Positions 4,245 to 32,028 of a stretch of DNA of 45,034 nucleotides are shown here, piece by piece. Both the position numbers and the translations under genes were made by a program. The DNA comes from a virus: positions 1 through 45,034 of the IMG/VR virus record IMGVR_UViG_3300025087_000127; one strand, written 5' to 3'. The first letter of the stretch is position 1; the number at the start of each line of letters is the position of its first letter. A model generated the notes under the pieces. The model searched no databases. It had not been told where the DNA came from and saw only the letters and a program-made list of their open reading frames with translations.

Positions 4245-5278
4245 GCAACCGATACTCGAGCGTTAAGGGCCTTTCGGACAATCTTCGAATGCCGCGCCTG
4301 GGAAAAATACGGCTTGGCGTCAAAGTCGCAAACGACGCCCAAAACTCATATTATCCAAGGGAAACCCAGCATTTCGTGTGTCCCCCGGAAGTGGAGGCAA
4401 TCTACGGCGAGGATCCAACCGAACTGGATATCGTGTTCCCGCTGGACAACGAGCAAGAATGCTTTCCCCAAGCCTACAAGTGGTACGCGGGGCCATCTCT
4501 TCGCTGCAAGGGGGATGGGGAGAGCGCCCTGCGCGCTGCCGGGGCCCTGGGGGACCAGATTGAGCTGGTTAAGGACCATATCCCGGCGGATCCAAACGCC
4601 ATGGTGGAGATATCCTGTCCGTGTCCTTTGCTGGACAAAGACGGGAAAGGAAAATCCGCATGCAACCTTGTTGGCACCCTGTCTTTCATGCTTCCCCGTG
4701 TAAGCATTGCCGGGATATATCAGATTGACATGCGGAGTTACAACTCCATCCTGAACATAAACAGCGGGCTGGCGCTGGCCCGAAGCATTGCCGGCCGCAT
4801 TTCCATGATCCCCTTTAAACTTAAACGCATTCCCCAGGCCATCCAGTATAAAGGCAAAACGAACACGCATTATATTTTGAGGCTTGAACACCAGCTTACC
4901 ATGGCTCAAGTGCAGGGGATCCGGGGAGACAAATTCTTTTTGGGTTACGCGCCTCAAAACCAGGATTTGAAAACAGCCGGCGCCGCGCCCTCATCCGCTG
5001 AAGATATAAACCCCGAAACCCTAAGCGATCAAAAAATTGAGATTTCCGTAACAGATGTTCAATTCCCCGAAAACGGCGGAAATGGCTCCTACATTATCAA
5101 GGGTTGCGAAAATGCCGCGTCCTCTGAACTGGAATTTAAAAGCCTGGTCCCGGACTTTGCCAAGGCAGCCTGGGAGATTTCAACCGAGGATCAGTGCCGT
5201 GTTGTGGTCCGGTACAGGATCGTAGCGGATGGATCCTTCGAAGTGTTTGAAATCCTGAAAGGCCGGCCGCTCCAATGA
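4241..5278 (+). CDS. gp3/recombination-directionality-factor-like phage protein
   Basis: The 345-residue product (GTG start overlapping the previous stop as GTGA) has the hallmarks of the phage family annotated as gp3-like or RDF-like: an early LGKIRLGVK, then YYPRETQHFVCP, GEDPTELDIVFP, a WYAGPSLRCKGDG segment, and a mid-protein CPCPLL motif. Members named after phiC31 gp3 reverse serine-integrase recombination, but most family members occur in phages without such an integrase. No integrase is visible here, so a recombination role is doubtful; a conserved early DNA-metabolism or metal-binding role is equally likely. A longer frame from 4100 overlaps the upstream gene and is rejected. Confidence 0.8.
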   Translation: MSNRYSSVKGLSDNLRMPRLGKIRLGVKVANDAQNSYYPRETQHFVCPPEVEAIYGEDPTELDIVFPLDNEQECFPQAYKWYAGPSLRCKGDGESALRAAGALGDQIELVKDHIPADPNAMVEISCPCPLLDKDGKGKSACNLVGTLSFMLPRVSIAGIYQIDMRSYNSILNINSGLALARSIAGRISMIPFKLKRIPQAIQYKGKTNTHYILRLEHQLTMAQVQGIRGDKFFLGYAPQNQDLKTAGAAPSSAEDINPETLSDQKIEISVTDVQFPENGGNGSYIIKGCENAASSELEFKSLVPDFAKAAWEISTEDQCRVVVRYRIVADGSFEVFEILKGRPLQ

Positions 5279-6039
5279 GCGTAAAATCTGACATAGAGTG
5301 GACGGATGCCACGTGGAATCCTGTCACCGGCTGTACGAAAGTGAGCGCGGGCTGCGCGAACTGCTATGCCGAAACCTTGGCCAAGCGCTTCTGGAAAGAT
5401 CGAAAATTCACGGACGTCCAAATCCGCCCGGAGAGGCTGGACGATCCGTTGAATTGGATGAAGCCGCGCCGCATCTTCGTCAATTCCATGAGCGATCTGT
5501 TTCATGAAAAAATCCCAACCGAATATATCTACGACATTATCGGCCGCATGACGCTGGCGAAACACCACACATTTCAAGTGCTGACCAAGCGGCCCGAGAG
5601 AATGGCCAAAATTGTACAACACGACCACCCAAACATTTGGTGGGGCGTCTCTGTTGAGGACCAGGCCTCGGCGGACAAGCGGATCCCAAAGCTGATCATG
5701 ACGCCGGCTGTGGTCCGGTTTATTTCTTGTGAGCCGCTTCTTGAGCATATAAATTTAGAGCGGTGGCAGCCGGCAATCGATTGGTGCATTGTTGGCGGCG
5801 AGACCGGACCCGGAGCGCGCGCCACCAGCTTGGACTGGATCGAATCGATTGTCCACCAATGCCAAACCAACGGAATTCCTGTGTTTGTAAAACAGGTTGG
5901 ATCCAGGCCTCAATTTAAATTTGAGAACGGAGGCAAAATTCAGGAAGCCCACGGCAAATATCTCGGCATCAAAAATTATAAAGGCAGCGATATGTCCGAG
6001 TGGCCCGAAAGCATCCGAGTCCGGGAGTTCCCGAAATGA
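5275..6039 (+). CDS. DUF5131 (phage Gp37/Gp68) radical-SAM-like protein
   Basis: The 254-residue product opens with EWTDATWNPVTGC and has Cys20, Cys27 and Cys30 in TGCTKVSAGCANCYA, the cysteine triad of the DUF5131 family, which is related to radical SAM enzymes. Further family motifs are IFVNSMSDLFHE, FQVLTKRPERM, WWGVSVEDQ and SCEPLLE. The reaction is unknown for the family; it is common in phage and mobile-element genomes. The length is typical and the gene looks intact. The start overlaps the stop of the gp3-like gene (ATGA). Confidence 0.9.
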   Translation: MSVKSDIEWTDATWNPVTGCTKVSAGCANCYAETLAKRFWKDRKFTDVQIRPERLDDPLNWMKPRRIFVNSMSDLFHEKIPTEYIYDIIGRMTLAKHHTFQVLTKRPERMAKIVQHDHPNIWWGVSVEDQASADKRIPKLIMTPAVVRFISCEPLLEHINLERWQPAIDWCIVGGETGPGARATSLDWIESIVHQCQTNGIPVFVKQVGSRPQFKFENGGKIQEAHGKYLGIKNYKGSDMSEWPESIRVREFPK

Positions 6040-11349: not shown

Positions 11350-11576
11350 CAATTTGCATGGGCTGTCGGCTTGGGGATCACGAACTGTGCAAGTGCGCGC
11401 CCGAGTGCAGCTGTTGGTGTCAGGACGATGAGGAACGAATGAAGAGATGCCGCGATCATTTATTTGGAATCGTCACGGGCCGGTGTGTTTTTTGTGGGTT
11501 GAACAAACCCCAACCGGAAAAAGACGCAGAGGAGAAATTCAAAAATGAAAAAAAACACCGTAATCGAAAAACTTAA
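11346..11576 (+). CDS. cysteine-rich zinc-binding protein
   Basis: The 76-residue product (TTG start in a TTGA overlap) is exceptionally Cys-rich: CMGC, CKCAPECSCWC, RCRDH and CVFCG, enough for two zinc sites. It ends in a Lys-rich tail that overlaps the start of groES by 32 bases. No enzyme motif is seen; protein-protein or nucleic-acid contacts are likely. Confidence 0.65.
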   Translation: MTICMGCRLGDHELCKCAPECSCWCQDDEERMKRCRDHLFGIVTGRCVFCGLNKPQPEKDAEEKFKNEKKHRNRKT

Positions 11577-11844
11577 ACCCCTGGCGGATCGGGTGTTGGT
11601 GCGGCCCGAACCGCAAAAGGAAGAAGTGGACGGGATCCAGCTCGCGCCCGGTGCCCAAGAAAAACCGCAGCGCGGCGTTGTCCTGGCGGCCGGTCCCGGG
11701 GTCTACGACTCGGGCAAGCTGATCAGGCTGGATGTGAAGGCCGGCCATAAAGTTTTGTACGGCAAGAATCTCGGAACAGAGATTCACATCAACGGCGAAA
11801 AGCTTCTGATCTTGAGACAGGACGATATATTGGGAACGATTTAA
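11545..11844 (+). CDS. groES: co-chaperonin GroES
   Basis: The 99-residue product is a normal-length GroES: KLKPLADRVLVRPEPQKEE, the mobile-loop region around VDGIQLAPGAQEKP, GVVLAAGPGVYD, and a C-terminal strand ending ILGTI. GroES caps the chaperonin ring and encloses the client protein. It is followed by groEL with a 39-base gap. Both genes share an identical upstream segment (GGAGAAATTCAAAAATG), pointing to matched translation rates. The residue run after VDG is somewhat divergent from cellular GroES, so the ring partner is probably the phage GroEL. Confidence 0.95.
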   Translation: MKKNTVIEKLKPLADRVLVRPEPQKEEVDGIQLAPGAQEKPQRGVVLAAGPGVYDSGKLIRLDVKAGHKVLYGKNLGTEIHINGEKLLILRQDDILGTI

Positions 11845-13987: not shown

Positions 13988-14437
13988 ATGGTAGGGAAAC
14001 GGTTGGAAAAGAAAAGCGCGCGGAAAGCCGCGATCATGATTCACCAGGGAGTTCCGATAGCCAAGGCGATGCAAAAAATCGGATATTCCAAGACCACGGC
14101 ATATCACAAACAGCAAGCGCTCACAGGCAAACCAATTTTTAAGCAAGAGTTTGAAGCGGTCCGGGCCATCATTGCGGCATCCTGTCTCAAGCATGGAGTA
14201 ACGGTTGACCGCATGGTGAAGAAGGTTGCGTACGGATTGGACGCCAGGATCCAGTTTAAAAATAAGAGTATCCCGGATCACGAAGTGCAAATTAAGTGGT
14301 GGGATCGCGGCGCGGTCCTCCTGGGAATGACGAAAGAGAAGGACGAAGTGGAGACCGGGATCCAGAAAGTCATAAACGTACACCAGCTTTTTCAAATCGT
14401 TGTGGATGCAAGGAGGGAAAGAGGGCTTGAAATTTGA
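13988..14437 (+). CDS. terminase small subunit
   Basis: The 149-residue product has an N-terminal helix-turn-helix-like DNA-binding region (AIMIHQGVPIAKAMQKIGYS, then KTTAYH) followed by a helical oligomerisation region, the usual small-terminase layout. It lies immediately before the large terminase, overlapping it by 11 bases. The ATG at 13988 has TTAGGAGG upstream; an in-frame ATG at 13949 lies inside the terminator hairpin and is rejected. The protein would recognise the packaging site, possibly the repeats at 13524. Confidence 0.75.
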   Translation: MVGKRLEKKSARKAAIMIHQGVPIAKAMQKIGYSKTTAYHKQQALTGKPIFKQEFEAVRAIIAASCLKHGVTVDRMVKKVAYGLDARIQFKNKSIPDHEVQIKWWDRGAVLLGMTKEKDEVETGIQKVINVHQLFQIVVDARRERGLEI

Positions 14438-16169
14438 TAAAAGACACCTTTTCGTTTTCCTCACCATCATGGGCCTTATGACCACGGCCTGCGCTTCTCT
14501 CACCCCAGAAACAGTAAACCAAAAAATCAAAGAATCAAAATTTTTCCGCGAGACATTCTTCTCAATCGTCAACCGAGACGAACTCACCGTTCCATTCATC
14601 CAAAACAAAGCCCAAGCAAAATATTATAAAGAGCAGACCAGCGACGATCTGATTCTGAAGGCCCGTAAACTCGGGTTCAGTTCAGAGATTGAAGGCGACT
14701 TCCTTTTCGATTGCATGTTTAAAGAGAACACCAACGCGGTCACCATGGCGCATACCATGGACGACACTCACATCCACATGCAGAGGATCAGGTTTTATAT
14801 CCGTTCGATGAGAAGGTTGCCGACCCCGATGGAAGTGAAGCTGGAAGCGGACAGCGCCACGGAGTTATATTTCCCGGAAAAGAACTCCTATTATTGGATC
14901 GGGACATCGGGAGCCAAGGGGTTTGGCCGCGGACGGCAGATCACGCGGTTTCATGGGTCGGAAGTGTCTCATTGGCCGGACCAGGGCGTTCTCACTGGCG
15001 TTTTGAACGCCAGATCAAAGCAAGCCAAGACCCGGTTGGAAACGACCGCCAAAGGCATGGAGAAGTTTGCTGAGATGTGGTTTGAAGCTGAGGATCCAAA
15101 CATAGAATCGCCGTGGGCACAGCATTTCTTCGCATGGTGGATGGATCAGGACAACGTCCGTCCAGTCACGGACAAACGGTTTGCCGCGACCTCCGAGGAA
15201 GGTCGGATGAGGGAGGCCGTTCAGAAGCTTTATAAGATCACCTTAACGGATGAGCAGATCAACTGGTGGCGCTGGGAGCGGTCCCGCCAATCCGACAAAG
15301 CTCTCATGCCTCAAGAGCATCCGTCTTTCCCCCGCGAAGCCTTCCTTTCCAGCGGCCGCCACGTGTTTCCTCTTCCGAAGCTTGAAATCATGGAAACGAG
15401 GGTAAAAGACCCTATCATGGTGGGCTATCTCGAGGACGACGACAAGGCCATCCGGCCGGTGGACGACCCGGACGGGCCGCTGACCATATGGATTCCACCC
15501 CGCGAGGGACGGCGTTATATCATCCCAGCCGATCTGGCCGAAGGCGTGAAGGATGGAGCCTTCAATGTGGCCCCGGTGATGGACCGATCATCTTGGGAAG
15601 TGGTGGCCCAGCTACGATTGCGCTCGGATCCCGGTGACTTTGGCCGGATGCTGGCCACCCTGGGCGAATATTATAATTGGTCCCTGGCGATTCCAGAAAT
15701 GAACAACCATGGCCACGCATGCCTGGAAGCCATGAAAGCTTGGCGCGGCCGGGGATATCCCCATATCCTTAAAACAACCGATTTGTGGCGTGATGTGACC
15801 GAGAAGCTTGGTTTTCCAACCGATGAACGGACCAAGGCTCTCACCATCACCGCTCTCCGCAACACGATTGACCAGCTTGCCTACGTTGAAAATTCACCCG
15901 TGGCGATCAAGGAAATGATCGGCGCGGTCTACAACGAACACGGCAAGATGGTGAGCGAACGATCCAAAAATGTTGTGGGGAAGGACAAGGAACGGCTCCA
16001 TTTGGATTGTGTGATTACCCGGATGATCGGAATGTACTGCCTCAAATTTCTCACCCTGGACACCACCTACAGAGAGACCAATGCCGTTCAAGGCGGGATA
16101 TTGGCTTCCAGGGTGGCCGGGACTAAAGCAGATAAAAAAACAAAGCCGTGGTTGAGGAAAAGCGCATGA
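14427..16169 (+). CDS. terminase large subunit (packaging ATPase-nuclease)
   Basis: The product of about 580 residues has an ATPase domain with the Walker-A-like segment LILKARKLGFSSEI, a Walker B region near FHGSEVSHWP, and a C-terminal RNase-H-like nuclease domain beginning IPADLAEGVKDGAFNV with acidic residues. It pumps DNA into the procapsid through the portal and cuts it. I chose the TTG at 14427, nine bases after AGGAGGG; a frame open from 14400 lacks a better site. The gene looks intact and of normal length. Confidence 0.85.
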   Translation: MKFDKRHLFVFLTIMGLMTTACASLTPETVNQKIKESKFFRETFFSIVNRDELTVPFIQNKAQAKYYKEQTSDDLILKARKLGFSSEIEGDFLFDCMFKENTNAVTMAHTMDDTHIHMQRIRFYIRSMRRLPTPMEVKLEADSATELYFPEKNSYYWIGTSGAKGFGRGRQITRFHGSEVSHWPDQGVLTGVLNARSKQAKTRLETTAKGMEKFAEMWFEAEDPNIESPWAQHFFAWWMDQDNVRPVTDKRFAATSEEGRMREAVQKLYKITLTDEQINWWRWERSRQSDKALMPQEHPSFPREAFLSSGRHVFPLPKLEIMETRVKDPIMVGYLEDDDKAIRPVDDPDGPLTIWIPPREGRRYIIPADLAEGVKDGAFNVAPVMDRSSWEVVAQLRLRSDPGDFGRMLATLGEYYNWSLAIPEMNNHGHACLEAMKAWRGRGYPHILKTTDLWRDVTEKLGFPTDERTKALTITALRNTIDQLAYVENSPVAIKEMIGAVYNEHGKMVSERSKNVVGKDKERLHLDCVITRMIGMYCLKFLTLDTTYRETNAVQGGILASRVAGTKADKKTKPWLRKSA

Positions 16170-16501
16170 GCATGAAACTGCCGCCTTCTCCGGATCAAAA
16201 TAGTCCGGATCCATCTTCTTCAGAAGTGCGTCAAAAGGAGGCATCATTGGCGCGGCTTCCAAAAATGTCAACGATCGGCAGCGGATTCTATAGGGAATGC
16301 CCGGTTTATTGCCTGTGCTATACCTGTGGAGGGATGATGATCAACGACACCGTGATATCGACTCTGCTTTGCCCGAAATGCCCGTCAAAACTGCCGATGA
16401 TGAATTTTTCCGATTTCGATTATGCCGTGAAAGAGAGCCAGCGCTCAAAAGGAGAGAAGTTCCTTCGCGAGCGCGGTGAATCATTGGGAGGAGCAGCGTG
16501 A
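16166..16501 (+). CDS. small zinc-ribbon protein in the packaging operon
   Basis: The 111-residue product has CPVYCLCYTCGG and LLCPKCP, which fit a zinc ribbon, between a Ser/Pro-rich N-terminus and a charged C-terminus. The ATG at 16166 overlaps the large terminase stop (ATGA). Its stop overlaps the GTG of the next gene. The function is unknown. Confidence 0.65.
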   Translation: MSMKLPPSPDQNSPDPSSSEVRQKEASLARLPKMSTIGSGFYRECPVYCLCYTCGGMMINDTVISTLLCPKCPSKLPMMNFSDFDYAVKESQRSKGEKFLRERGESLGGAA

Positions 16502-17118
16502 GCAAGCGGGCCGTGAAATCTTACGATACCAGCCTTTGTACCCCGCTCGGGGACGTCATTGTGGCGGAGCCATTTGACCGGATCGCGGTAATTGATGGCA
16601 TTATGATCGCCGCAGAAGAGGAAAAGTCCCATGAGGAAACAAAATCCGTGGTCCGCGCTGTCGGACCGGAAGTCACCAAGGTTAAGCCCGGTGACGCCAT
16701 TTTTCATAGCCGGTATGCCGGATCCCCAACCGCAATCAACGAAAAGCCGTTCATTGTGATGAGGGAGAGCCGCGCCGCCAACGACCTGTTTGGTATTTTC
16801 TTTGGCAACCGTCCGATCGACATCTCCCCAATGGACGACATTCTTTTCGTGGAGTGGGAGGACGGCACAAAGGAATTCCAGGGAACCAAGATCCAGAAGG
16901 TTGGAATCGACATGGAGCGGCATTACACCGGCATTATCCTTACGCATGGACCGGATGTGATGGACAAAAGGATCAAGTCTGGCCAGCGGATATTCTTCAA
17001 TCAGTTCTGCTCCCCGGAGCGCGTGGATTACCAGGGCAAGCGCTATGCCTTCATCCGGGAATATGACGCCCTTTTGATCGTTCCGAGCCGAACCGAAATG
17101 GCGGTGCTTGCGGCATGA
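16498..17118 (+). CDS. tandem double GroES-fold protein in the head operon
   Basis: The 206-residue product (GTG start, GGGAGGAG upstream) appears to be two GroES-like domains in a row. Domain 1 (about 15-100) has LGDVIVAEPFDRIAVIDGIM, then VVRAVGPEVTKVKPGDAIF and a terminal FIVMRES strand. Domain 2 (about 102-200) has ISPMDDILFVEW, TGIILTHGPDV, SGQRIFFNQF and YAFIREYDALLIV. A seven-subunit ring could form from fewer chains than usual. It is separate from the groES at 11545 and lies between terminase and portal, so it may be a dedicated co-chaperonin for capsid protein folding or a structural protein using the same fold. The call is by pattern of strands and Gly-Pro turns. Confidence 0.65.
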   Translation: MSKRAVKSYDTSLCTPLGDVIVAEPFDRIAVIDGIMIAAEEEKSHEETKSVVRAVGPEVTKVKPGDAIFHSRYAGSPTAINEKPFIVMRESRAANDLFGIFFGNRPIDISPMDDILFVEWEDGTKEFQGTKIQKVGIDMERHYTGIILTHGPDVMDKRIKSGQRIFFNQFCSPERVDYQGKRYAFIREYDALLIVPSRTEMAVLAA

Positions 17119-17582: not shown

Positions 17583-17843
17583 ATGCCGGGAGAAATTATC
17601 ACGATTGACTCAGCAAATTACCCCGATCTTGCCAAAATTGAAGATGGGGAACAGGTGGAACTCAAGGTGGTCGGCACCAAGACATCGGATGAGGATGGCG
17701 GGATCCAGATTGAGACAACGTCAATTGAGCAGATGAACGTGAACCCGGCCAAGAAGTCTCTCAAAGAAATGAAGAAACCCGGAATGCCCATGGGCAAACC
17801 GGACAACGACATGCCGGACGCGGAAGAAGAGGGGGATTACTAA
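17583..17843 (+). CDS. small paralogous head-operon protein A
   Basis: The 86-residue product has a beta-rich core (GEQVELKVVGTKTS) and a C-terminal NPAKKSLKEMKKPG followed by an acidic tail. The C-terminal motif recurs in the next gene (NPARKSLEEMKKP), so the two look like tandem paralogues. AAAGGAGG precedes the ATG. It could be a small decoration or assembly protein; no function is recognised. Confidence 0.65.
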   Translation: MPGEIITIDSANYPDLAKIEDGEQVELKVVGTKTSDEDGGIQIETTSIEQMNVNPAKKSLKEMKKPGMPMGKPDNDMPDAEEEGDY

Positions 17844-18112
17844 TGGACGGCGCTGTAATATCTCCAACTCCATACCAGCCGCCAACTCATCTTCAGCTCA
17901 CCAAGGAACAGGCTGGAGATTTGGCCATTGGCGAGCATGTGAAAATATCCATTTCGGGAAAGGTTGTCGGTATTTCGCAGACAAAAAGCTGGGATCAAAA
18001 GAAAAAGAAGGACGTTGTAACTGGGTACGACGTCCAACTGGAAGATTCCAGCGTCGTTGATATCGCAACAAACCCGGCCAGGAAGTCCTTGGAGGAAATG
18101 AAAAAACCATGA
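17843..18112 (+). CDS. small paralogous head-operon protein B
   Basis: The 89-residue product resembles its upstream neighbour: GEHVKISISGKVVG in the core and NPARKSLEEMKKP at the very end. The start overlaps the previous stop (TAATG). The pair probably arose by tandem duplication and divergence. The stop overlaps the next ATG. Confidence 0.65.
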   Translation: MDGAVISPTPYQPPTHLQLTKEQAGDLAIGEHVKISISGKVVGISQTKSWDQKKKKDVVTGYDVQLEDSSVVDIATNPARKSLEEMKKP

Positions 18113-18277: not shown

Positions 18278-20392
18278 GTGCTTAAAACGAAGATAGACTT
18301 TTCCAACATTCAAGTCCTGGAAGCCGGCCTGGATTCTTCAAACCAGGACCACGACCTTCTTGATTTGACGGATAAGCAAGCCGCCCGGATCCGGCGCACA
18401 CTCAAAGAAGAGATTTCGGCCTGGGAAAGCGAAACAGCGCCGCTTATTCAGAAGCTTGAGCATTGGTACGACCTGTCAGAAGGGATAATTGACGACAGCG
18501 ACGAGCCCTATCCCGGGGCCTTCCACACCCACATCGACCTGATCGGCATTTACCTCAAAATTTATACCAGCATCGAGAAGCGGTCCATCCTTGGACCCGA
18601 AACGCTTTGGTATGCCGAAACCGAAGCGGATCCCGAGTTTGACAGCGTTCAGGATGCGCTCCCGGAGATTGACGAAATGATGAATTACAAGGCCCGGGCG
18701 GAGTGGAACGTCACCGAGGCCATTGGGGAAGCCTTCCCCTGCGTCAACCGGGACGGCCTTGCGGTCCTTAAAATCCCACATGTCGTGGACACCGAGGAAG
18801 TGGAGGATCGGGTTCTTCTCCGCAATCTTGAAGATCTGATACTTGAGTTTCCTCCCGGAGAATCAAGCCTGTCTAAAAAGGAGTGGGGCGTTCTGGCCCA
18901 ACTGGTTGAAGCAAACGGCAGCGATGAGACCCCAATCGAAGTCCCGGTAACTTCCGAGCGCACAAATTATTATGGGCCAAAAGCCTATGTCATTGAGCGA
19001 ATCAATTTCGTCACGTTTCCTTCCAATGCCCGGAGCCTAGACCGTGAATTTTGCCGCGGCCACGGAGACAGGTTCTATCTCCGCCGCGAGGAAGTCCGCC
19101 AGAAGATGGAGTCGGAGGAGTGGTACGAGGATGCCTGTAAAGAATTCCTCAAAAAGACGAAGAAGGCGGCCGGCTCCGACCCCACCAGTTACCGCACAAA
19201 TCAGGAAAGCATCACAGGGATCAACCGGGGGGACAAAGCAGACGAGTTCGAATTTTACGAGCTGACCTACTGGATGCGGCTTGAGCAGAAAGGCGTTGAG
19301 AAAAAATACGTGTTCATTTATACCAAGGAACACAATATTCTCATGTTCGCCAAGGTTTACTGGTATCGGACGCCCTCATACTACGCCAAGTTGAGGATAG
19401 AGCGCCGGGCTAACCAGATTGACGGCAAGTCTGTGGTTGGGCAGCTTGAATTTTTAAACGAAGAGCTGGATCTGCTCCACAACATGTGTGTCCAGGGTTG
19501 GCAGATCAGCAATATCCCCAGCTTCAAGATGGAGAAGGGCCTTGCCAAAGAGCTGGACCTCGAAGCCGACGAAAATCTCTGGCACCCTGGCGTGGTATTC
19601 CATCTCCCGGCCGGGACATTTGAAAAGTTCATTCAGTTCGATGTGCGGCCAACGGACAACGGCGCGATTACCCGCGGCGAGGCCCAGCTTTTAAATTACG
19701 CGGCGCTTATCATGGGGATAGACGCCTTCCTGGCCAGCGGCCGGCCATCACCCGAGGATCCCAACGCGCCGGGGAACAAGACCCAGCTTTTGGTCAATCA
19801 GGGCAACATTCGGATGGAGGATCCGCTGTCCGAACTACGGTATGGCGTTGAGGAAGTTGGGCAGATCTGCCTTTCTCACCTTTATCAGTTTGGGCCGGCG
19901 CAGATCCAGTACAAGGGCACGGAAGGCAAGAAAAAGATTACCAAATACCTTTCCAAGAAGTTTCTCCGGTCCGGCATCAGGCTCAAGATGCAGGGATTGA
20001 GTGTTGTCATGAACTCCGAAAACGAATTCAGGAAAGGAATAGAGAAGTGGGGGATAGCCATTAAAGAGCCGCTGGTGGCCCAAAAGGCCAAGTATAGGCT
20101 CGAGGCCATGCACCAGGCCTTCCGAAAGGGCCGTGTGCCTGATTACGCGCGATATATCCCTACCATGGAAGAGGCCGAAGCCTACGATGTCCAAGTAGCC
20201 AAACAGGCCATCCTCAACATGGCCATGGAACAGCAAGCCGCACAGGAAGAGGCCAGAATGGAGCAAATGAAGGCCCAAGAACAGCAAAAAGCCATGGCAC
20301 TGAAAGGCCTCTCGGATAAAGTCAGGGCCCAAAATCTCATAAAGCAAATTACCGAGCAAAACCTAGCAGCACAATTACAGGAGGCAGCTTGA
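18278..20392 (+). CDS. portal protein
   Basis: The 704-residue product matches the pattern of large phage portal proteins: an N-terminal helical WESETAPLIQKLEHWYDLSE, the PYPGAFHTHIDLIGIY segment, a long central region with the IDGKSVVGQLEFLNEELD helix, and a Gln-rich helical C-terminus. Twelve copies would form the DNA channel at one capsid vertex and dock the terminase and neck. The GTG at 18278 is the only reasonable start; the nearest GGGAGG lies 25 bases upstream, so the start is uncertain. The length fits podovirus-type portals. Confidence 0.8.
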   Translation: MLKTKIDFSNIQVLEAGLDSSNQDHDLLDLTDKQAARIRRTLKEEISAWESETAPLIQKLEHWYDLSEGIIDDSDEPYPGAFHTHIDLIGIYLKIYTSIEKRSILGPETLWYAETEADPEFDSVQDALPEIDEMMNYKARAEWNVTEAIGEAFPCVNRDGLAVLKIPHVVDTEEVEDRVLLRNLEDLILEFPPGESSLSKKEWGVLAQLVEANGSDETPIEVPVTSERTNYYGPKAYVIERINFVTFPSNARSLDREFCRGHGDRFYLRREEVRQKMESEEWYEDACKEFLKKTKKAAGSDPTSYRTNQESITGINRGDKADEFEFYELTYWMRLEQKGVEKKYVFIYTKEHNILMFAKVYWYRTPSYYAKLRIERRANQIDGKSVVGQLEFLNEELDLLHNMCVQGWQISNIPSFKMEKGLAKELDLEADENLWHPGVVFHLPAGTFEKFIQFDVRPTDNGAITRGEAQLLNYAALIMGIDAFLASGRPSPEDPNAPGNKTQLLVNQGNIRMEDPLSELRYGVEEVGQICLSHLYQFGPAQIQYKGTEGKKKITKYLSKKFLRSGIRLKMQGLSVVMNSENEFRKGIEKWGIAIKEPLVAQKAKYRLEAMHQAFRKGRVPDYARYIPTMEEAEAYDVQVAKQAILNMAMEQQAAQEEARMEQMKAQEQQKAMALKGLSDKVRAQNLIKQITEQNLAAQLQEAA

Positions 20393-23980: not shown

Positions 23981-24871
23981 ATGACCATAAATAGAGGTAA
24001 CTTCCAGGCCTCTGACTTCCCCCACTACAAGAAGATTTTCCATCTTGGAATGGGCCGGGAGGTCAAGGATCGGAGAGAAGTCTACTTCGACCAGGTAAGC
24101 TCGGATCGTAAATTCGAGACTTACTTCGAAGTAGGGGATTTTGGAACCGTGCCGGAGTTCGACCAGGAACTTCAGTATGAGGGAGTGCAGCAGGGGTACC
24201 AGAACACCATCACCAACAAACTCTACGCGAAGGGCATGCGTATTGAGTACGAGTTCAAGAGGGTTGACCAGCAGAGGATCGCGAACAGCCTTCCCAAAAT
24301 GTTGGCAATGGCCATGAGGCGCCGTCTGGCCGGCGATTCAGCAACGTGGTTTAACGATGCGACCACGACCTACCTAACGAGGGACGGCCTGTCTCTCGTC
24401 AACGCCGCGCACACCAGCAACAACGGCGGCGCGAACCAAAGCAACCGCATCACGACCGCGTTCTCGGCCGTGGCCCTTGCGGCTGCCCGCATCACCATGC
24501 GGAAGTTCCTGAGCAACACCGACCAAATCCTGGACATCATGCCGGACACGCTGTACGGCGGGATTGACTTACAGGATTCCTTCGAAGAAGTGATCAAGTC
24601 GAAGGGGCAGGTGAACACAGCGAACAACACCATCAACATCATGCAGGGCGCGTTCCGGGCAGTGACGGACCGGCGCTTTGAGGACACCAACAACTGGGGA
24701 ATTGCGGATTCAAAACTCCAGAAGGAATTCAACATCTGGCAAACCGTGGATCCTGTCAGCTTCCAAGAGGCGGAAGTTTTTGACGGAATGACGGCGAAAT
24801 ATTCGTGCCGCAGTTTTCACGGGTACGGAAGCACCGGATGGGAATGGCTCCTCTTCGCAGAGGTTGCTTAA
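23981..24871 (+). CDS. major capsid protein (Mu gpT-like)
   Basis: The 296-residue product resembles the Mu gpT family of HK97-fold capsid proteins: YFDQVSSDRKFETYFEVGDF near the start, EFKRVDQQRIANSLPKMLA in the long-helix region, DGLSLVNAAH, and a C-terminal WGIADSKLQKEFNIW segment. A strong AGAAGGAGGG site and a terminator just after the gene fit high expression. It should build the icosahedral shell with the scaffold-like and portal proteins. Confidence 0.8.
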   Translation: MTINRGNFQASDFPHYKKIFHLGMGREVKDRREVYFDQVSSDRKFETYFEVGDFGTVPEFDQELQYEGVQQGYQNTITNKLYAKGMRIEYEFKRVDQQRIANSLPKMLAMAMRRRLAGDSATWFNDATTTYLTRDGLSLVNAAHTSNNGGANQSNRITTAFSAVALAAARITMRKFLSNTDQILDIMPDTLYGGIDLQDSFEEVIKSKGQVNTANNTINIMQGAFRAVTDRRFEDTNNWGIADSKLQKEFNIWQTVDPVSFQEAEVFDGMTAKYSCRSFHGYGSTGWEWLLFAEVA

Positions 24872-25471: not shown

Positions 25472-25505
25472 TCGCAGCGGAAGCATAAATCATAGGAGGT
25501 TTAAA

Positions 25506-26450
25506 ATGTTCAGAAAAATTGTCGGGTTTGCTCTTCTTGCCGTTGTGATGGCTTCTCCTGTCTTTGCGGGAGAGCCTGGGGACCGCCTCTCGCCGGACGC
25601 TTGGGGCGTTGGTGGGCCTGGATCAAGCAGAGTTTCTTCGCAACCTGTCGTCAGGGTTGACTACGACGGAGATGTTTTGCCGGCTGAAAACGCGCGGCAA
25701 TCTGTCGGTTCTCCAACGGAAACATGGAAAAGCGGCCACTTCGGAAGCATTGAGGTTACCAGCGGCATTGCCAATCACACGGAATTCTTTTTCAATCTTT
25801 CCTCGGGTAACACACTGGGCATGCGCGCTGCCGGCTTCGTTGTTTCGACGAACACCTTGAGGAATTCAGCAACGACGTATATTGAACACGAAATCATCCA
25901 GTCCTCCGGTGCCCCTCGAAACGTCACCATCAGCGTCTCCAGTTCAGTCATTGGAGCTATAGGCGCGGCCTCCACCATGACTTTAATTGGATGCGCGACC
26001 TTTTATGGATATGATGCGGCCGGATACTTTGTCTCCGAGCTTGTCTCCTTCTCCACCACATCCGGCGTCAGCATAGTTCTGTCCACCGCTCCTGGAGCGG
26101 GCCTTTGCCAGGATCAGACTTGCCAAAAATCCGGTATGGGCGTAGGAAATGTAGCCTTTGCAAAAATCTCCAGCTTCACGGCCCAGCTTGCGGAGGCGTT
26201 GCCTGTCGCTGGCAGCCTTCCCGAATTGATCACTCTGAGGATCGGATGGGGCAACAAGATAGGGCTTTCAAACCAGGTCTCCAATTCGTCCGATGTCTAT
26301 AAAGTCACGGACTCAAATGGGGACGTATCATCGCCTCAAAATAATCCCGGATTCTCCGTCAACACCACTTTTTCAACGGTCGTGTTCGATCAGACTCCGG
26401 CCCTGAGCAATAAGAAGGTGTGGTATAAGACGAGACGGTCCTGGCGGTAA
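25506..26450 (+). CDS. secreted virion-region protein 1
   Basis: The 314-residue product starts with a clear signal peptide (MFRKIVGFALLAVVMASPVFA then GEPGD). The mature part is Ser/Thr/Gly-rich with beta-strand periodicity, plus WKSGHFGSIEVTSG, a phrase typical of phage tail-fibre or receptor-binding repeats. AGGAGG precedes the ATG at 25506; an in-frame ATG at 25380 lies inside the previous gene. It is the first of seven consecutive genes with signal peptides. Confidence 0.75.
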   Translation: MFRKIVGFALLAVVMASPVFAGEPGDRLSPDAWGVGGPGSSRVSSQPVVRVDYDGDVLPAENARQSVGSPTETWKSGHFGSIEVTSGIANHTEFFFNLSSGNTLGMRAAGFVVSTNTLRNSATTYIEHEIIQSSGAPRNVTISVSSSVIGAIGAASTMTLIGCATFYGYDAAGYFVSELVSFSTTSGVSIVLSTAPGAGLCQDQTCQKSGMGVGNVAFAKISSFTAQLAEALPVAGSLPELITLRIGWGNKIGLSNQVSNSSDVYKVTDSNGDVSSPQNNPGFSVNTTFSTVVFDQTPALSNKKVWYKTRRSWR

Positions 26451-26481
26451 AGGCGGCACCATTTCATAAGAGGAGGCTAGC

Positions 26482-26991
26482 ATGAAAAGAATTATTTTTG
26501 CGGCCATGTTTATTGCGGCCGGATGGGCCGGCGCCGCCTGGGCGCAGCCCATCGGCGGGCCGGAGAGTCAACTCACGGTTGTCCCAATCTATGAGGAGTA
26601 TGGAAACACATCGAGGCTCATCAATGTGCCAATCAGCACAACCAATGTCGTTGTGATTTCCTCGGAAGCGCCGAACGCCTATGGGCATCAAACGTCCACA
26701 TCAGAGGCTCTCGGGATATCCGTTTGGCGCTTTCGTGAGATTGTGAACACAAGCACGTGCGCGGCCCTGGCATTATATCCAGACCGGAGCTACACAACAT
26801 ACACTTCCAGCTTCGGGATTGTGTTGAGCAGTGATTCCACCAATCTTGGCGCCGGCGATTCCTATGTTGTCCCAAGTCAAACCGCCATTTATGGGATATG
26901 GTCGCCATCGTCTGGATCCTCAACGTGCGGCGCTGCTGGGGCTGGTGCCGGGGGATATGAAACTTATTACCTCCAAAGCGGGCGGAGGTAA
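26482..26991 (+). CDS. secreted virion-region protein 2
   Basis: The 169-residue product has the signal peptide MKRIIFAAMFIAAGWAGAAWA followed by QPIGG. The mature part is Ser/Thr/Tyr-rich and ends GYETYYLQSGRR. AGAGGAGG precedes the ATG. Its composition and GRR ending resemble the exported protein at 250. A small beta-sandwich virion or surface protein is a reasonable guess. Confidence 0.7.
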   Translation: MKRIIFAAMFIAAGWAGAAWAQPIGGPESQLTVVPIYEEYGNTSRLINVPISTTNVVVISSEAPNAYGHQTSTSEALGISVWRFREIVNTSTCAALALYPDRSYTTYTSSFGIVLSSDSTNLGAGDSYVVPSQTAIYGIWSPSSGSSTCGAAGAGAGGYETYYLQSGRR

Positions 26992-26996
26992 CTTAA

Positions 26997-27572
26997 ATGA
27001 AAAAATTCATGTTCTTTTTTTTGGCGTTGCTGCTTTACTGTGGGACCGTTGAAGCGGCCGGGATCAAGAGAAAGGTCACGGGGAAGGCCGGCGCAGCTGG
27101 ATCGGCCGGCGCTTCGGGGACGTCCGGGACAATCTCCGGATCGACACTCTCATATGTCTTGGATATCCCAACGGTTTATCTCTCGACCAGTGGGCCTTGC
27201 TCAACTCCTCGCGCGTGCATCAGCGCGGGCGTTGACACCATGACCATCGTGGCCTATTGGTTCGACGCGGTTCATCCTTCGACGAATTCTTTTTCTGGAT
27301 TCAAACTGGTGATTACCACGGGACCGGCAAATTTCGGGAGTCTCGCAAACGCTTATCCGGTTATTCAGGATAGGTTCAACAACATGACCGTCTCGATGGC
27401 CACAGCCACAGCTATCGGGCGCGGGGATGGGTTCAGCGGTATCATTTCAACGTCAGTGATTCTTAACGCTGGGGAGACTCTTACAGTTTGGACTTCGACG
27501 ACCAACGCAAGCGGCCCTCCGACGAGAGGAGGAAAATTCCATGTGGATGCGTGGACCAAGGCCCGTTATTAA
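26997..27572 (+). CDS. secreted protein with short collagen-like tract
   Basis: The 191-residue product has a signal peptide (MKKFMFFFLALLLYCGTVEA) and then a Gly-X-Y tract (GKAGAAGSAGASGTSGT), as found in trimeric phage fibres, followed by a beta-rich domain. CGGAGGTAAC precedes the ATG. It overlaps the next gene by 32 bases. A trimeric fibre-like role is inferred from the tract. Confidence 0.7.
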   Translation: MKKFMFFFLALLLYCGTVEAAGIKRKVTGKAGAAGSAGASGTSGTISGSTLSYVLDIPTVYLSTSGPCSTPRACISAGVDTMTIVAYWFDAVHPSTNSFSGFKLVITTGPANFGSLANAYPVIQDRFNNMTVSMATATAIGRGDGFSGIISTSVILNAGETLTVWTSTTNASGPPTRGGKFHVDAWTKARY

Positions 27573-28389
27573 AATACACAGCGGCATACTTTTCTTCTTA
27601 ATATTCATGGGGCAATCGCTGCATGCGATCAACCCAACGGACCCGCTTGACCCAAATTGCATCCTTGCCGTTGATATGAAAGATGGCCGCGGCGGCGTGG
27701 CCAGGGATTTAAGCAAGTCTGGACTCGACATGACGCTGAACGGGGCGGCCGCGTGGCTTGAGGAAACCCAAATTTTCGCGGATTGGAGAGAAACTCTTTT
27801 CAGCGTAAGGCCAGCCTCACTTACTTATGCGCCACTCTATGGTCACGCTGTTTATTTGACGGCGACGGCTGGCATTGACTTAACAACGAACGTCACAACC
27901 AAGTTCGATTTCAGCGGGAACAAGCCATTCATGTGGGCCATTATAATCTCTGATTACTCCATAGGCTTTGATGCGGGGCAAGTTTCTATTTTCAACTGGT
28001 CGCAAGGGGCCAACAGCTGTGGACTTTCCCTTGAAATTACTGGCGGGGCAAACCAGACTTTGAATTTAAATGCGGCCGGGATTGGAACAATGTCATCTTG
28101 GAATATCGAGTATGGGCGCGACACCAAACCTCACATGATCGGATTCTGGCGAGACGAGGCTGGCCATACCGATGCTTATTACGATGGAAAACTGGTTAGG
28201 TCTAATTCTTCGATCGCAGATATGAACACTTGTGGGGGTGGGTCAGCTATGAATATCGGCAAGGCCAAGACGGGCGCGGCAGGGGAAATGGGTGGAATTG
28301 TAGGGCCATTTTGGTGGTGGGATAAAACGGTCGAGAGAAATAACGCTCCTGGGTTCTTTAAGGCGTGGCTTGAAAATCAATCTTTTTAG
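27541..28389 (+). CDS. secreted LamG/concanavalin-like protein
   Basis: The 282-residue product has a basic N-terminus, a hydrophobic core (ILFFLIFMGQSLHA) and then a domain with the LamG-type pattern: ILAVDMKDGRGGVARDLS, KPFMWAIIISDY, HMIGFWRDEAGHTDAYYDGK and an aromatic FWWWDK end. Such folds bind carbohydrates, which would fit host-surface recognition. AGAGGAGG precedes the ATG. Confidence 0.7.
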   Translation: MWMRGPRPVIKIHSGILFFLIFMGQSLHAINPTDPLDPNCILAVDMKDGRGGVARDLSKSGLDMTLNGAAAWLEETQIFADWRETLFSVRPASLTYAPLYGHAVYLTATAGIDLTTNVTTKFDFSGNKPFMWAIIISDYSIGFDAGQVSIFNWSQGANSCGLSLEITGGANQTLNLNAAGIGTMSSWNIEYGRDTKPHMIGFWRDEAGHTDAYYDGKLVRSNSSIADMNTCGGGSAMNIGKAKTGAAGEMGGIVGPFWWWDKTVERNNAPGFFKAWLENQSF

Positions 28390-28804
28390 CTTCCTTTTCG
28401 TTCTCGTAGCCTCCGGGATTCTGTGGGCCCAGGATCCTAAGCCTAAGACTTATTTTCTCCGCGTTGCTGTTAACCCGGTGCAGACCAAGCAAACCGTTGC
28501 GACAGCGTTTAAGACGAAGGGAAACCAGGTTTCGGACAATCCATTTTATCTCACGCACACGCTGACCCAACCCGACACGAATTACGTCCTGGTGATAATG
28601 ACCCCGAAGGACGGGGCCGAGGACACTCAAGTGAAGGGCGGCGGGTTTGCTCTCCCTGGAGATGTGTACCAGATTTGGGAATTTGAGCCAAACAGCATAC
28701 CGCAGTGCATCGTGGACAACAGCAAAATTTTCCCCGTAGATCACGATTGGTCTGTCGAGGTTAGCTGCCCGGTAGCTAAAGAAAGGAAGGGGTTAGGAGG
28801 GTAA
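28370..28804 (+). CDS. secreted virion-region protein 5
   Basis: The 144-residue product starts at TTG, overlapping the previous gene by 20 bases, and has a signal peptide (MKINLFSFLFVLVASGILWA then QDPKP). The mature part has two Cys and no recognised motif. The GTTAGGAGG at its end serves the next gene. Confidence 0.65.
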   Translation: MKINLFSFLFVLVASGILWAQDPKPKTYFLRVAVNPVQTKQTVATAFKTKGNQVSDNPFYLTHTLTQPDTNYVLVIMTPKDGAEDTQVKGGGFALPGDVYQIWEFEPNSIPQCIVDNSKIFPVDHDWSVEVSCPVAKERKGLGG

Positions 28805-28805
28805 G

Positions 28806-29561
28806 ATGAAGCGCATAATATCACTTTTCCTGTTTTTCTGCATTATAGGGATTCATTCTGCTGAAGCGCTCACGCTTTCCGATATCCGGACATCCATCCG
28901 CCGTGAAGTGCATGACAATCCCGCCGATACGGCCCGCCGCCGATATTCCGATACCGTCCTCAATGACCTGATCAATGAAGGACAGCGCGAAATCACAATC
29001 GCTGGGGACCTTGCGGACAAAACCACCGTCTATACTCTTTCCCCACGGACCACTTATTATATCCTTCCGACCGATGTTATCGGGGTCAAGCAAATTTATT
29101 TCACGGACAAATTTTTCCAGCTTCTTGAGCTTGAGGAAAAACCCCAAAAATCCCTCTATGATAAAAACCCACAATGGGAAAGAAACTCAGGATCCCCAAA
29201 CTCATACTGGATCAGCCAAGCCACTCACCCGCGAAACCAGCAATCGGCGCCGCTCCGGATCTCCTACATTCCTATCCCGACCAACCTGTCCACCGGGACA
29301 GTCACCATCTGGTATTCCTACATAATGTCGGACCTATCGGCGGACACTGATGTTCCGTTTGAAAACCGCAGAAACCTTTACCCCTACCACGCCGCGCTCA
29401 TTTACTATACCGTGGTCCGCCTGAAAGTGACGGAAGGTAAAATATCAGAGGCGTCCACCTACCAGCAGCTCTATACCTCGACTTTAAATTCCATGAAAGG
29501 AAAACTCGGGGAAATGCCAAACTACACCCCTGGAATAGCAATCCCTGGAGTTAATCGGTAG
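28806..29561 (+). CDS. head-tail adaptor-like protein with a signal peptide
   Basis: The 251-residue product has the phage neck adaptor pattern after residue 22: TLSDIRTSIRREVHDNP, RRRYSDTVLNDLINEGQREI, YILPTDVIGVKQIYF, and a final helix around AALIYYTVVRLKVTEGKISE. Adaptors of this type bind the portal and seat the tail. Unexpectedly it is preceded by a strong Sec signal (MKRIISLFLFFCIIGIHSAEA). AGGAGGG precedes the ATG. How a neck protein with a cleavable export signal meets a cytoplasmic procapsid is unclear. Confidence 0.75.
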   Translation: MKRIISLFLFFCIIGIHSAEALTLSDIRTSIRREVHDNPADTARRRYSDTVLNDLINEGQREITIAGDLADKTTVYTLSPRTTYYILPTDVIGVKQIYFTDKFFQLLELEEKPQKSLYDKNPQWERNSGSPNSYWISQATHPRNQQSAPLRISYIPIPTNLSTGTVTIWYSYIMSDLSADTDVPFENRRNLYPYHAALIYYTVVRLKVTEGKISEASTYQQLYTSTLNSMKGKLGEMPNYTPGIAIPGVNR

Positions 29562-29565
29562 GCAA

Positions 29566-32028
29566 ATGAATGGCCGCTTTTGTTTCCTCATTAGCGTTTT
29601 CGCCTTCGCCGCGCTGTCGCTGGCGCAGGGGGCAACGCTTCCTCTCATCCCTAAACCCCAAGGGTTAAATACCGACACTGACCCGCTCCTTATAACTGAC
29701 GGCAAATCACCGGACTCTGAAAATGTGGTCACGGACGAATTGGGCGGGATCAAGCCGCGCGAAGGGTTTGTCCGGTTCAGCACTCAAGCAATCGACCAGG
29801 AATGGATTTTTGCGCACAGCAACGGGACCCGGTATTTCATTGTCCGGACCAGCACGCAGCTCCTTGCCTCAACCGGCGAGAGCAATTTTACGGTCTTTAT
29901 TGCCACGGTGGACAGGAACGTCCAGACAGCCGCGGCCCAGCTGGGGGATAGGTGGTTTTTCGGCAACACCACGGACATTCTCAAGTATTGGGACGGGAGC
30001 GCGGTTGTTACGACGTCCCAATCCATCCGGCCGGCCATGCTGGCGTCTCACAAGGCCCGCCTATGGGCGGCCGGGATCGGTAGCGACGAAAGAACGATCT
30101 ATGGCTCCGAATATCTTCAGGGCCACAATTTTGCCCTAGCGCTGGATCCGGTTGAGACCGATCCTGTCCGGATCCCGGTCCAAGGCGCATTGGATGAGGT
30201 TATAACCGCGCTCTACGCATCCTTCAACGACATGCTCATGTGGTTTAAGCCGGCGGCATTTGGTGGAATTCATGGGAGCCGAAGAAGCAATTTTGGATCC
30301 CGGAGTTACAGCGAGACGGTCGGGAGCGCATATCCAACCAGCATTCAGGACTGTGATGGTGAATTGCGGTTCCTTGGGTCCCGGCGCCGGGTCTTTGCCT
30401 TTGGCGGAAACGCGGCCGGCGAGCCAGTTTTGAGGAAGATCAGCGAAGATATCGACACCCTGATGGACACGGTGTTGCAGGGAGATTTGACGCAAAGGAC
30501 TTGGACTCAAACTTCACAGGGAGAGTGGGCCCTTGGGTCAGGCGGAAACCCCAACATGGGGTTAAGCACGAACACGGTCGCTGGCGATGTGGCTTTTGTG
30601 GCACAGGCGACCATCGCTGTGCCCGCCGATGGATTCGACGATTCAAGTTATTTGTCCAGCCCAGCGTGGAATGTCGTAAACGGTTCTTTTGGTGTCGTGA
30701 ATGGGGATCTTCAGCTTTTAAGTTTGCCGGCCGGCCTTGCAGATATAAATTTGCCCAGCAACTTCAGCACCGGCACATGGACAATTTCCGGCACAAATCT
30801 TGGAACCGGATTCTATGACTTCATGAATTCGCAAGCAGATCTTTCCGGAGAGGGATATCAGTTTTACTATGATGCGGGCGGCACACTTGGATTGCGCTAT
30901 CGCAGACCGATTGGGTTTGGGCCCACCATCGCGGCATCCGTTGCCTTCGCTGTCGTTGCGCCGCTTAAAAAAATCAGCGTTACAAGGACGGAAAAAGGAA
31001 TTTTTATATCTTCGTATTCGGACAACAATGTAACTGACTTGCCTTTGACCGGCATTCCCGGAGTCGCCATTGACACTGTGACGTCCTATTCAAATTATTT
31101 CTCACTTCAACCGGATGATGGGAGCGGCTTCAGCTTGGATTATGTTCAGGTCAGCAGCCCAGCCTACATTTTTTACTCTTCTTTCACGTCTCAATCGTTT
31201 AACACCGGAACGGATGCTTCCGCCTGGGGAAACTTTACAGCGAATTCCACCGAAAACGGCGGGACGATCACATATGGAATATTCTCCGATTCGGACACGA
31301 CATTAAACATTTCGGATCAAACGACATTCATTGCCAGCCAAACCATTGTCCCAGACACCACCCCAACACTAAGGATCTCCTCTTATGTAACGGTCGCGGC
31401 GTATTTTAACCGGCGGTTTTCCACGAATACGGTCAGCATGAACGATTTTGTCGTGCGCTGGAAGCAGGGATCCACCCTTGACGTTCCATCGGCCTGGATA
31501 AATCAAAGGTTCTGGCTTGGCGTGGCAGTCGGGTCCGCCGCGAACAATTCCGTCCTCGTCTTTGATCGTAACAGGGAATGGAACCTTTATACCGGGATCA
31601 ACATGACCGCAGCGGCGATCTATGATTCCAGCCTCTTCTTTGGGAATGCCGCCGGGTTATGGGAGGCAGAGATTGGGACAAGCGACAATGGCGCGGCCAT
31701 CACCGCCTACTATAAGACCAAGGCTTTCGCGCCGGCCGGCCTGAACACTAAGACGACTTTCCGCGACCTTTTCATGACCACGACTGAAAGCGCCGCGACT
31801 TTGGAAACGGATTATTTTATCAACGGCATCTCCGCCGCCTATAGCCTGGCAGATTATGCAATGGATGGGGTGTCCGGATATCAGGATTTCAGGATCCCGT
31901 TTGCAACGACGGATATTGAGCAGGGCAAAACAATCGCTTTTAGGTGGACGATAACAAGCGACCTGGCATGGCAGATCCTTTGGGCCAACCTCTATCACGA
32001 ACCGGACACGATCATGACGGACAATTAA
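29566..32028 (+). CDS. large tail/nozzle-like protein with a signal peptide
   Basis: The 820-residue product has a signal peptide (MNGRFCFLISVFAFAALSLA) and then LPLIPKPQGLNTDTDPLLI and SPDSENVVTDELGGIKPREG, the start typical of podovirus tail tube/nozzle proteins with a propeller-like body. WIFAHSNGTRYFIV, WFFGNTTDILKYWDG and FAFGGNAAGEPVLRKISEDI follow the same style. A large inserted beta-rich region is at about 350-620. It follows the adaptor-like gene directly, as expected for a neck-tail pair. Confidence 0.7.
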   Translation: MNGRFCFLISVFAFAALSLAQGATLPLIPKPQGLNTDTDPLLITDGKSPDSENVVTDELGGIKPREGFVRFSTQAIDQEWIFAHSNGTRYFIVRTSTQLLASTGESNFTVFIATVDRNVQTAAAQLGDRWFFGNTTDILKYWDGSAVVTTSQSIRPAMLASHKARLWAAGIGSDERTIYGSEYLQGHNFALALDPVETDPVRIPVQGALDEVITALYASFNDMLMWFKPAAFGGIHGSRRSNFGSRSYSETVGSAYPTSIQDCDGELRFLGSRRRVFAFGGNAAGEPVLRKISEDIDTLMDTVLQGDLTQRTWTQTSQGEWALGSGGNPNMGLSTNTVAGDVAFVAQATIAVPADGFDDSSYLSSPAWNVVNGSFGVVNGDLQLLSLPAGLADINLPSNFSTGTWTISGTNLGTGFYDFMNSQADLSGEGYQFYYDAGGTLGLRYRRPIGFGPTIAASVAFAVVAPLKKISVTRTEKGIFISSYSDNNVTDLPLTGIPGVAIDTVTSYSNYFSLQPDDGSGFSLDYVQVSSPAYIFYSSFTSQSFNTGTDASAWGNFTANSTENGGTITYGIFSDSDTTLNISDQTTFIASQTIVPDTTPTLRISSYVTVAAYFNRRFSTNTVSMNDFVVRWKQGSTLDVPSAWINQRFWLGVAVGSAANNSVLVFDRNREWNLYTGINMTAAAIYDSSLFFGNAAGLWEAEIGTSDNGAAITAYYKTKAFAPAGLNTKTTFRDLFMTTTESAATLETDYFINGISAAYSLADYAMDGVSGYQDFRIPFATTDIEQGKTIAFRWTITSDLAWQILWANLYHEPDTIMTDN

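Follow-up and report, generated by a model that had tools for sequence, protein, structure and literature searches.

The stretch of DNA analyzed here, referred to below as the window, is the whole of IMG/VR virus record IMGVR_UViG_3300025087_000127 (45,034 bases) and belongs to a virus of bacteria. Its head and packaging genes include an open reading frame (ORF) for a protein in which two GroES-like domains, A and B, follow each other in one chain (table 1). This ORF starts with GTG, and its start codon and the stop codon of a small CxxC-containing ORF overlap in the sequence GTGA. The frame is open and, as read from the sequence, appears to be translationally coupled to the small ORF.

Table 1. 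Positions of the tandem GroES-like gene, its predicted parts, and neighboring genes in the window
Feature	Position	Strand	Basis and remarks
Ordinary single-domain GroES with roof hairpin	11545..11844	+	Pfam Cpn10 E 6e-23; roof segment 18 residues
Phage-encoded GroEL, 545 aa	11884..13521	+	NCBIfam TIGR02348, 723 bits (cut-off 582); full-length match to solved GroELs
TerL, up to 67.9 kDa	14400..16169	+	PHROG 38407 E 2e-24; terminase PHROG 24361 E 2e-4; annotated TerLs E to 6e-34; alignment A1
Upstream ORF, CxxC...CxxC, zinc-ribbon-like	16148..16501	+	Sub-threshold Pfam zinc-ribbon match, E 0.025
Shine-Dalgarno-like GGGAGGAG	16486..16493	+	Sequence just 5' of the GTG start of the tandem gene
Tandem GroES-fold protein, 206 aa, 23 kDa	16498..17118	+	Two Pfam Cpn10 stretches
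Domain A, nearer ordinary GroES	16540..16770	+	Residues 15-91; Pfam Cpn10 28.9 bits alone; groups with L170
Putative mobile-loop segment, domain A	16576..16644	+	Residues 27-49, tip G-I-M-I; alignment to canonical GroES; partly low pLDDT
Domain B, lineage-specific type	16822..17073	+	About residues 109-192; phmmer relatives; B clade 99/94
Putative mobile-loop segment, domain B	16861..16929	+	Residues 122-144, degenerate tip; alignment; residues 124-140 pLDDT <50
Portal candidate, 704 aa, 80.7 kDa	18278..20392	+	Position, size, weak alignment with annotated portals, same place in relatives
Major capsid candidate, 33.7 kDa	23981..24871	+	PHROG 371 major head protein, E 6e-9

The original prediction placed this gene between terminase and portal and held it to be distinct from the true groES, and both statements agree with the gene order: TerL and the portal candidate flank it, and groES and groEL are separate genes. 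The portal candidate had no family match of its own in the family and PHROG searches. Judged by its sequence, the phage GroEL looks intact. A GGM-type C-terminal tail is a reference feature of GroEL, and the window protein ends without one. Two small adjoining ORFs between the tandem gene and the portal candidate (17583-17843 and 17843-18112) hold or end in a near-identical motif (NPAKKSLKEMKKP and NPARKSLEEMKKP, respectively) and are likely the product of a tandem gene duplication. In the virion module (25473-32028), signal-peptide-like hydrophobic N-termini are found on ORFs 26482, 26997, 27541, 28370, 28806, and 29566 and on one ending at 26450; the ORF at 28806-29561 matches the head-and-packaging family PHROG 399 (E 4.5e-10). 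Elsewhere in the window, 5275-6039 has a strong match (E 5e-92) to PHROG 2045, a family whose function is not known.

The claim of two GroES repeats in one chain is upheld by several lines of evidence. Pfam Cpn10 (PF00166) matches the whole protein in two stretches (E 2.1e-10; 40.9 bits, cut-off 21.1) and PHROG 3188 (GroES) matches it with E 9e-13. Taken alone, half 1 lies above the Pfam cut-off and half 2 lies below it (15.1 bits, E 0.024). A non-circular GroES model, trained on the GroES of fetched contigs with the window's own proteins left out, detects both halves, at residues 15-91 and at about 109-192, with E 1.2e-9 over the chain. Of 2000 shuffles made for each half, the best reached 10.3 bits for half 1 (1845 scored), whose own score is 24.0 bits, and 8.9 bits for half 2 (1790 scored), whose own score is 17.4 bits. 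A two-sequence BLAST of one half against the other gives E 5e-4. Together with the predicted fold, these results establish that the tandem is real and not a chance resemblance. Searches with phmmer found relatives of domain B in L182, L094, L183, L185, L180, L186, and the first half of L181 (E 8e-14 to 2e-6). Exact-peptide scans of viral contigs and of genome contigs gave no close relative of the tandem protein, and tblastn against phage records gave no convincing one.

Structure prediction of the two halves, the check originally proposed, recovered the GroES strand order in each half of both AlphaFold2 models (alignments A4 and A6). The confidence of these models is moderate (mean pLDDT 68.8 and 71.8, pTM 0.44 and 0.52) and drops at both mobile-loop positions. 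Foldseek and VIA-align match them, at that confidence, to many GroES/Cpn10 chains, consistent with a GroES beta-barrel fold. The VIA-align list tests mainly residues 107-201, and the missing of other folds there proves nothing. The top PDB match of both models in the structure searches is the Cpn20 chain 7ekq_R (VIA-align 2: Z 10.1 over 165 residues, model residues 10-196, rmsd 6.6), Cpn20 being the best PDB match by sequence, profile, and fold alike. The tandem model aligns to T4 gp31 (1g31) with Z 9.7, and some viral models align across the whole tandem in Foldseek.

The proposed check for a mobile loop in each half found one in half 1, which in the alignment retains the hydrophobic triad (GIMI), and a weak one in half 2, in which the tip is degenerate (GTKIQKV) and the triad is lost. 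In the B-type loops of relatives the third position is basic (LVRP, LIRP); together with the loss of the triad, this suggests that GroEL binding by half 2 may be weak or absent. Despite very different sequences, relatives keep a mobile-loop segment of 17-30 residues, with a hydrophobic tip in most. The roof segment has 10 and 12 residues in the two halves versus 18 in the window's own GroES, and by this alignment most of the GroES roof hairpin is missing from each half, as it is from T4 gp31. Among the domains of the TerL-portal set the roof segment has a median length of 12 residues (23 domains; 12 or fewer residues in 14 and 19 residues in four), versus a median of 19 for 45 GroES linked to GroEL, five of which have 14 or fewer. 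Roof loss is not a rule of head-operon position, since the head-operon GroES of two pelagiphages have roof segments of 19-20 residues.

Relatives of the window were recovered with the TerL alignments A1 and A5, which gave 80 loci each and, with six contigs common to both, 154 distinct contigs; single-sequence scans with TerL and with the capsid protein gave no relatives, nor did a scan of genome contigs with alignment A5. A GroES-like ORF follows within about 4.5 kb of TerL in 18 of the 154 contigs (L180, L181, L182, L183, L184 [=L094], L185, L186, L187 [=L095], L188, L189, L191, L192, L194 [=L098], L195, L196 [=L100], L115, L170, and L223, the ORF of L223 overlapping the end of the TerL frame). 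These cases are not all independent, as L187 and L188 have identical proteins and L191 and L192 equal scores, and 18 is a lower bound because many contigs end shortly after TerL; L190 has 680 bp of sequence beyond it. All nine other contigs with a TerL score of at least 330 bits have a GroES-like gene after TerL, and below that score its presence is patchy. No GroES-like gene was found after TerL in L193, L096, L097, or L099, and nothing GroES-like is present between TerL and an adjoining portal gene in well-annotated distant relatives (e.g., L083 and L085-L087). The ORFs between TerL and portal of CRP-7 were considered as hidden GroES and rejected for want of a GroES match. Signal-peptide-like N-termini are seen again in ORFs after the GroES-like gene of L094, L183, L185, and L186.

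Every Cpn10 found in a survey of the 18 contigs is the head-operon one. A search for GroEL in 50 + 21 records, often fragments but including all 18 contigs, found none, and the same search detected GroEL in 14 of 14 named genomes used as a positive control. The relatives would therefore use the GroEL of their host, as gp31 does, and pairing with a phage GroEL would be special to this window. In L008 (5892-14389), a more distant TerL relative found through its GroEL, GroEL lies between TerL and portal and GroES upstream of TerL, an order that again ties chaperonin genes to the head and packaging module.

The most interesting part of this comparison is the repeated occurrence of single, split, and fused forms of the two domains in one phage lineage. 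In L180 the two types are encoded by consecutive ORFs, the A-type GroES scoring 61.0 bits with Pfam and the B-type falling narrowly short of the cut-off at 20.9 bits. L181 has the domains fused in the reversed order, B-A, in 217 aa; L189 and L095 have fused proteins of 233 and 216 aa, and L182, L183, L094, L185, and L186 have the B domain alone. In L188, a 42-kb record that may be incomplete, the tandem protein is the only Cpn10 found. In a tree of 36 domains, half 2 falls within a B clade (support 99/94), which is phage-only among the domains compared, none of them from plastids. Half 1 lies outside this clade on the canonical GroES side, grouping with L170 at a support of only 85/87; the deep forks of the tree are poorly supported, and long branches lead to several rows. 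Outside the loop, members of the B type have conserved residues in common (W-E and HYTG, for example). With only half 2 inside the B clade, we disfavor a simple internal duplication; the simplest reading of the sequences is that two different GroES-like genes were fused.

A possible counterpart exists in cultured phages. Gp096 of Cellulophaga phage phi18:3 (BFVD S0A356, cpn10, 200 aa) aligns to the tandem model over 207 columns in Foldseek; its gene, annotated as GroES, lies at 41458-42060 of the phage genome (L264), just before TerL and portal. As in the window, a second, single GroES is present (gp080, 84 aa). Unlike in the window protein, the C-terminal half of gp096 alone is GroES by sequence, the N-terminal half scoring below shuffles, and its tandem nature therefore rests on the predicted fold, from which gp096 may be a diverged tandem GroES adjoining TerL. 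By length and match we take gp096 to be PHROG 13932. A search of the phi18:3 genome found no GroEL. MS/MS virion notes are attached to 12 phi18:3 proteins, neither gp096 nor gp080 among them. The phage records searched include four phages of this kind, each under two accessions.

We consider the tandem protein to be probably a dedicated, roofless, Cpn20-like phage co-chaperonin for head or packaging proteins, derived from two fused GroES-type genes. An A-type gene nearer to ordinary GroES and a lineage-specific B-type gene, both of the head and packaging module, would have been joined, and the product would cap GroEL through its mobile loops, using the phage's own GroEL here and the host's in relatives. 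The resulting lid would be without a closed roof, as in T4 gp31, and would serve the folding of late head or packaging proteins. We infer GroEL binding, ring formation, client, and timing for this protein; as the client we would name the 81-kDa portal next door as a first guess, then TerL, and then the capsid protein.

Gp31 is reported to be without roof loops and to fold gp23 (PMC6318259), and the absence of these loops is proposed to aid folding of the larger gp23 (PMC6318259, PMC3012670). Should the roofless lid serve to accommodate over-size clients, the portal or the terminase would be likelier than the capsid protein. Both may be chaperonin clients; the portal protein B of lambda is reported to need GroES/EL (PMC3224144). 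The capsid protein, the client named in the original prediction, is unproven in this role, its candidate having 34 kDa versus 81 kDa for the neighboring portal and being small enough for an ordinary cage, a point that counts against the co-chaperonin reading.

Alternatively, the protein may have lost its partnership with GroEL and put the GroES fold to structural or assembly use, for example as a connector, scaffold partner, or terminase/portal adaptor. This reading would suit the location of the GroES-like gene, which in many relatives lies between TerL and portal, the conserved B-type positions outside the loop, the degenerate tip of half 2, and the absence of GroEL from the relatives' records. 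We judge it unlikely, given that a long loop with a hydrophobic tip is kept in relatives of very different sequence and that neither phi18:3 GroES protein is among those with a virion note. Moreover, related phages with annotated TerL and portal do without the gene (L083, L085-L087), and the GroES-like protein is thus not an essential connector of this head type. Between the two possibilities originally offered, a capsid co-chaperonin and a structural protein derived from GroES, the co-chaperonin is better supported, by the hydrophobic-tip loops, the many roofless domains, and the virion notes of phi18:3.

It is quite unlikely that the tandem protein forms no lid of its own and instead enters host or phage GroES rings, retuning cage size, client choice, or turnover. 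The additional single GroES encoded in the window and in phi18:3 would be in accord with such a modifier, as would one good loop beside one poor and the existence of mixed Cpn10/Cpn20 rings (reported in PMC5780408), but L188 carries the tandem protein without a second Cpn10, with the reservation that host GroES would be available to it and its record may lack a part. That the gene is the decaying or neutral remnant of a groES gained by horizontal transfer is very improbable despite the weak score of half 2, as the frame is open with apparent translational coupling and the gene holds the same place across divergent phages, in a clade with conserved residues of its own.

For a dedicated co-chaperonin, the even number of domains is no obstacle, as there are reports of seven-domain mixed Cpn10/Cpn20 rings and of functional lids with six or eight domains (PMC5780408, PMC3542282). 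Three tandem proteins and one single GroES would give seven domains. It is conceivable, though doubtful, that the phage builds a complete asymmetric chaperonin of its own from its GroEL and such a lid (3 x 2 + 1 = 7), with six of the seven domains roofless and an open top through which part of an over-size client, such as the 81-kDa portal or the 68-kDa terminase, could protrude. The tandem gene would then stem from repeated fusions of two specialized packaging-operon GroES genes, and the assembly would be a viral counterpart of the chloroplast Cpn10/Cpn20 ring.

The tandem Cpn10 described here is from phages, in which its two domains also occur singly and as separate neighboring genes. These forms make up a natural series in which the origin of a double co-chaperonin can be studied, and they also bear on how an even domain number meets the seven-fold GroEL. 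In some phage lineages, to judge from these genes, packaging operons may commonly carry a dedicated roofless co-chaperonin, and the cultured Cellulophaga phages with a comparable gene make the co-chaperonin reading testable.

Our literature search, with subscription journals largely outside it, found no phage protein described as a tandem GroES. Single-domain head-operon GroES occur in podovirus-like phages. One of them, annotated as GroES in Phage DSL-LC05, is encoded between TerL and portal, as the tandem protein is in the window. The head-operon GroES of pelagiphages HTVC023P and HTVC027P are likewise single-domain proteins, located between TerL and capsid genes and having a long roof; GroES is listed in the HTVC023P-type core genome (PMC9599517). 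HTVC023P gp30 (201 aa) was considered as a tandem GroES and rejected, having no GroES match.

Like T4 gp31 and RB49 CocO, the tandem protein is phage encoded, has a GroES fold, and has a head protein as its proposed client, and gp31 shares the absence of roof loops. Gp31 differs in being a single-domain protein, and identity to it in the structural alignment is only 10-11%. PHROG 931, which we take to be the gp31 family, did not match the window tandem protein at E 10 and gave weak matches to L095 and L170 only, among 10 proteins searched.

The Cpn20 of plastids and apicoplasts is already known to carry tandem Cpn10 domains (PMC5780408, PMC3542282), an arrangement described as specific to eukaryotes of plant lineages (PMC3542282). 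With these proteins and whole-tandem viral models at hand, the "new architecture" of the original prediction is too strong a term. We use the name Cpn20-like, and not Cpn20, because half 2 belongs to a phage-only B clade in a tree without plastid sequences. Unlike Cpn20, the window protein is encoded by a phage gene in a head and packaging operon, combines a lineage-specific B domain with an A domain, and has a degenerate loop tip in half 2; the roof segment is short in both its halves, whereas in 7ekq_R, by profile alignment, it is short in the first domain and long in the second. Like Cpn20 (7ekq chains R and Q), the window protein fits two head-to-tail Cpn10 domains into about 200 aa and coexists with a single-domain Cpn10.
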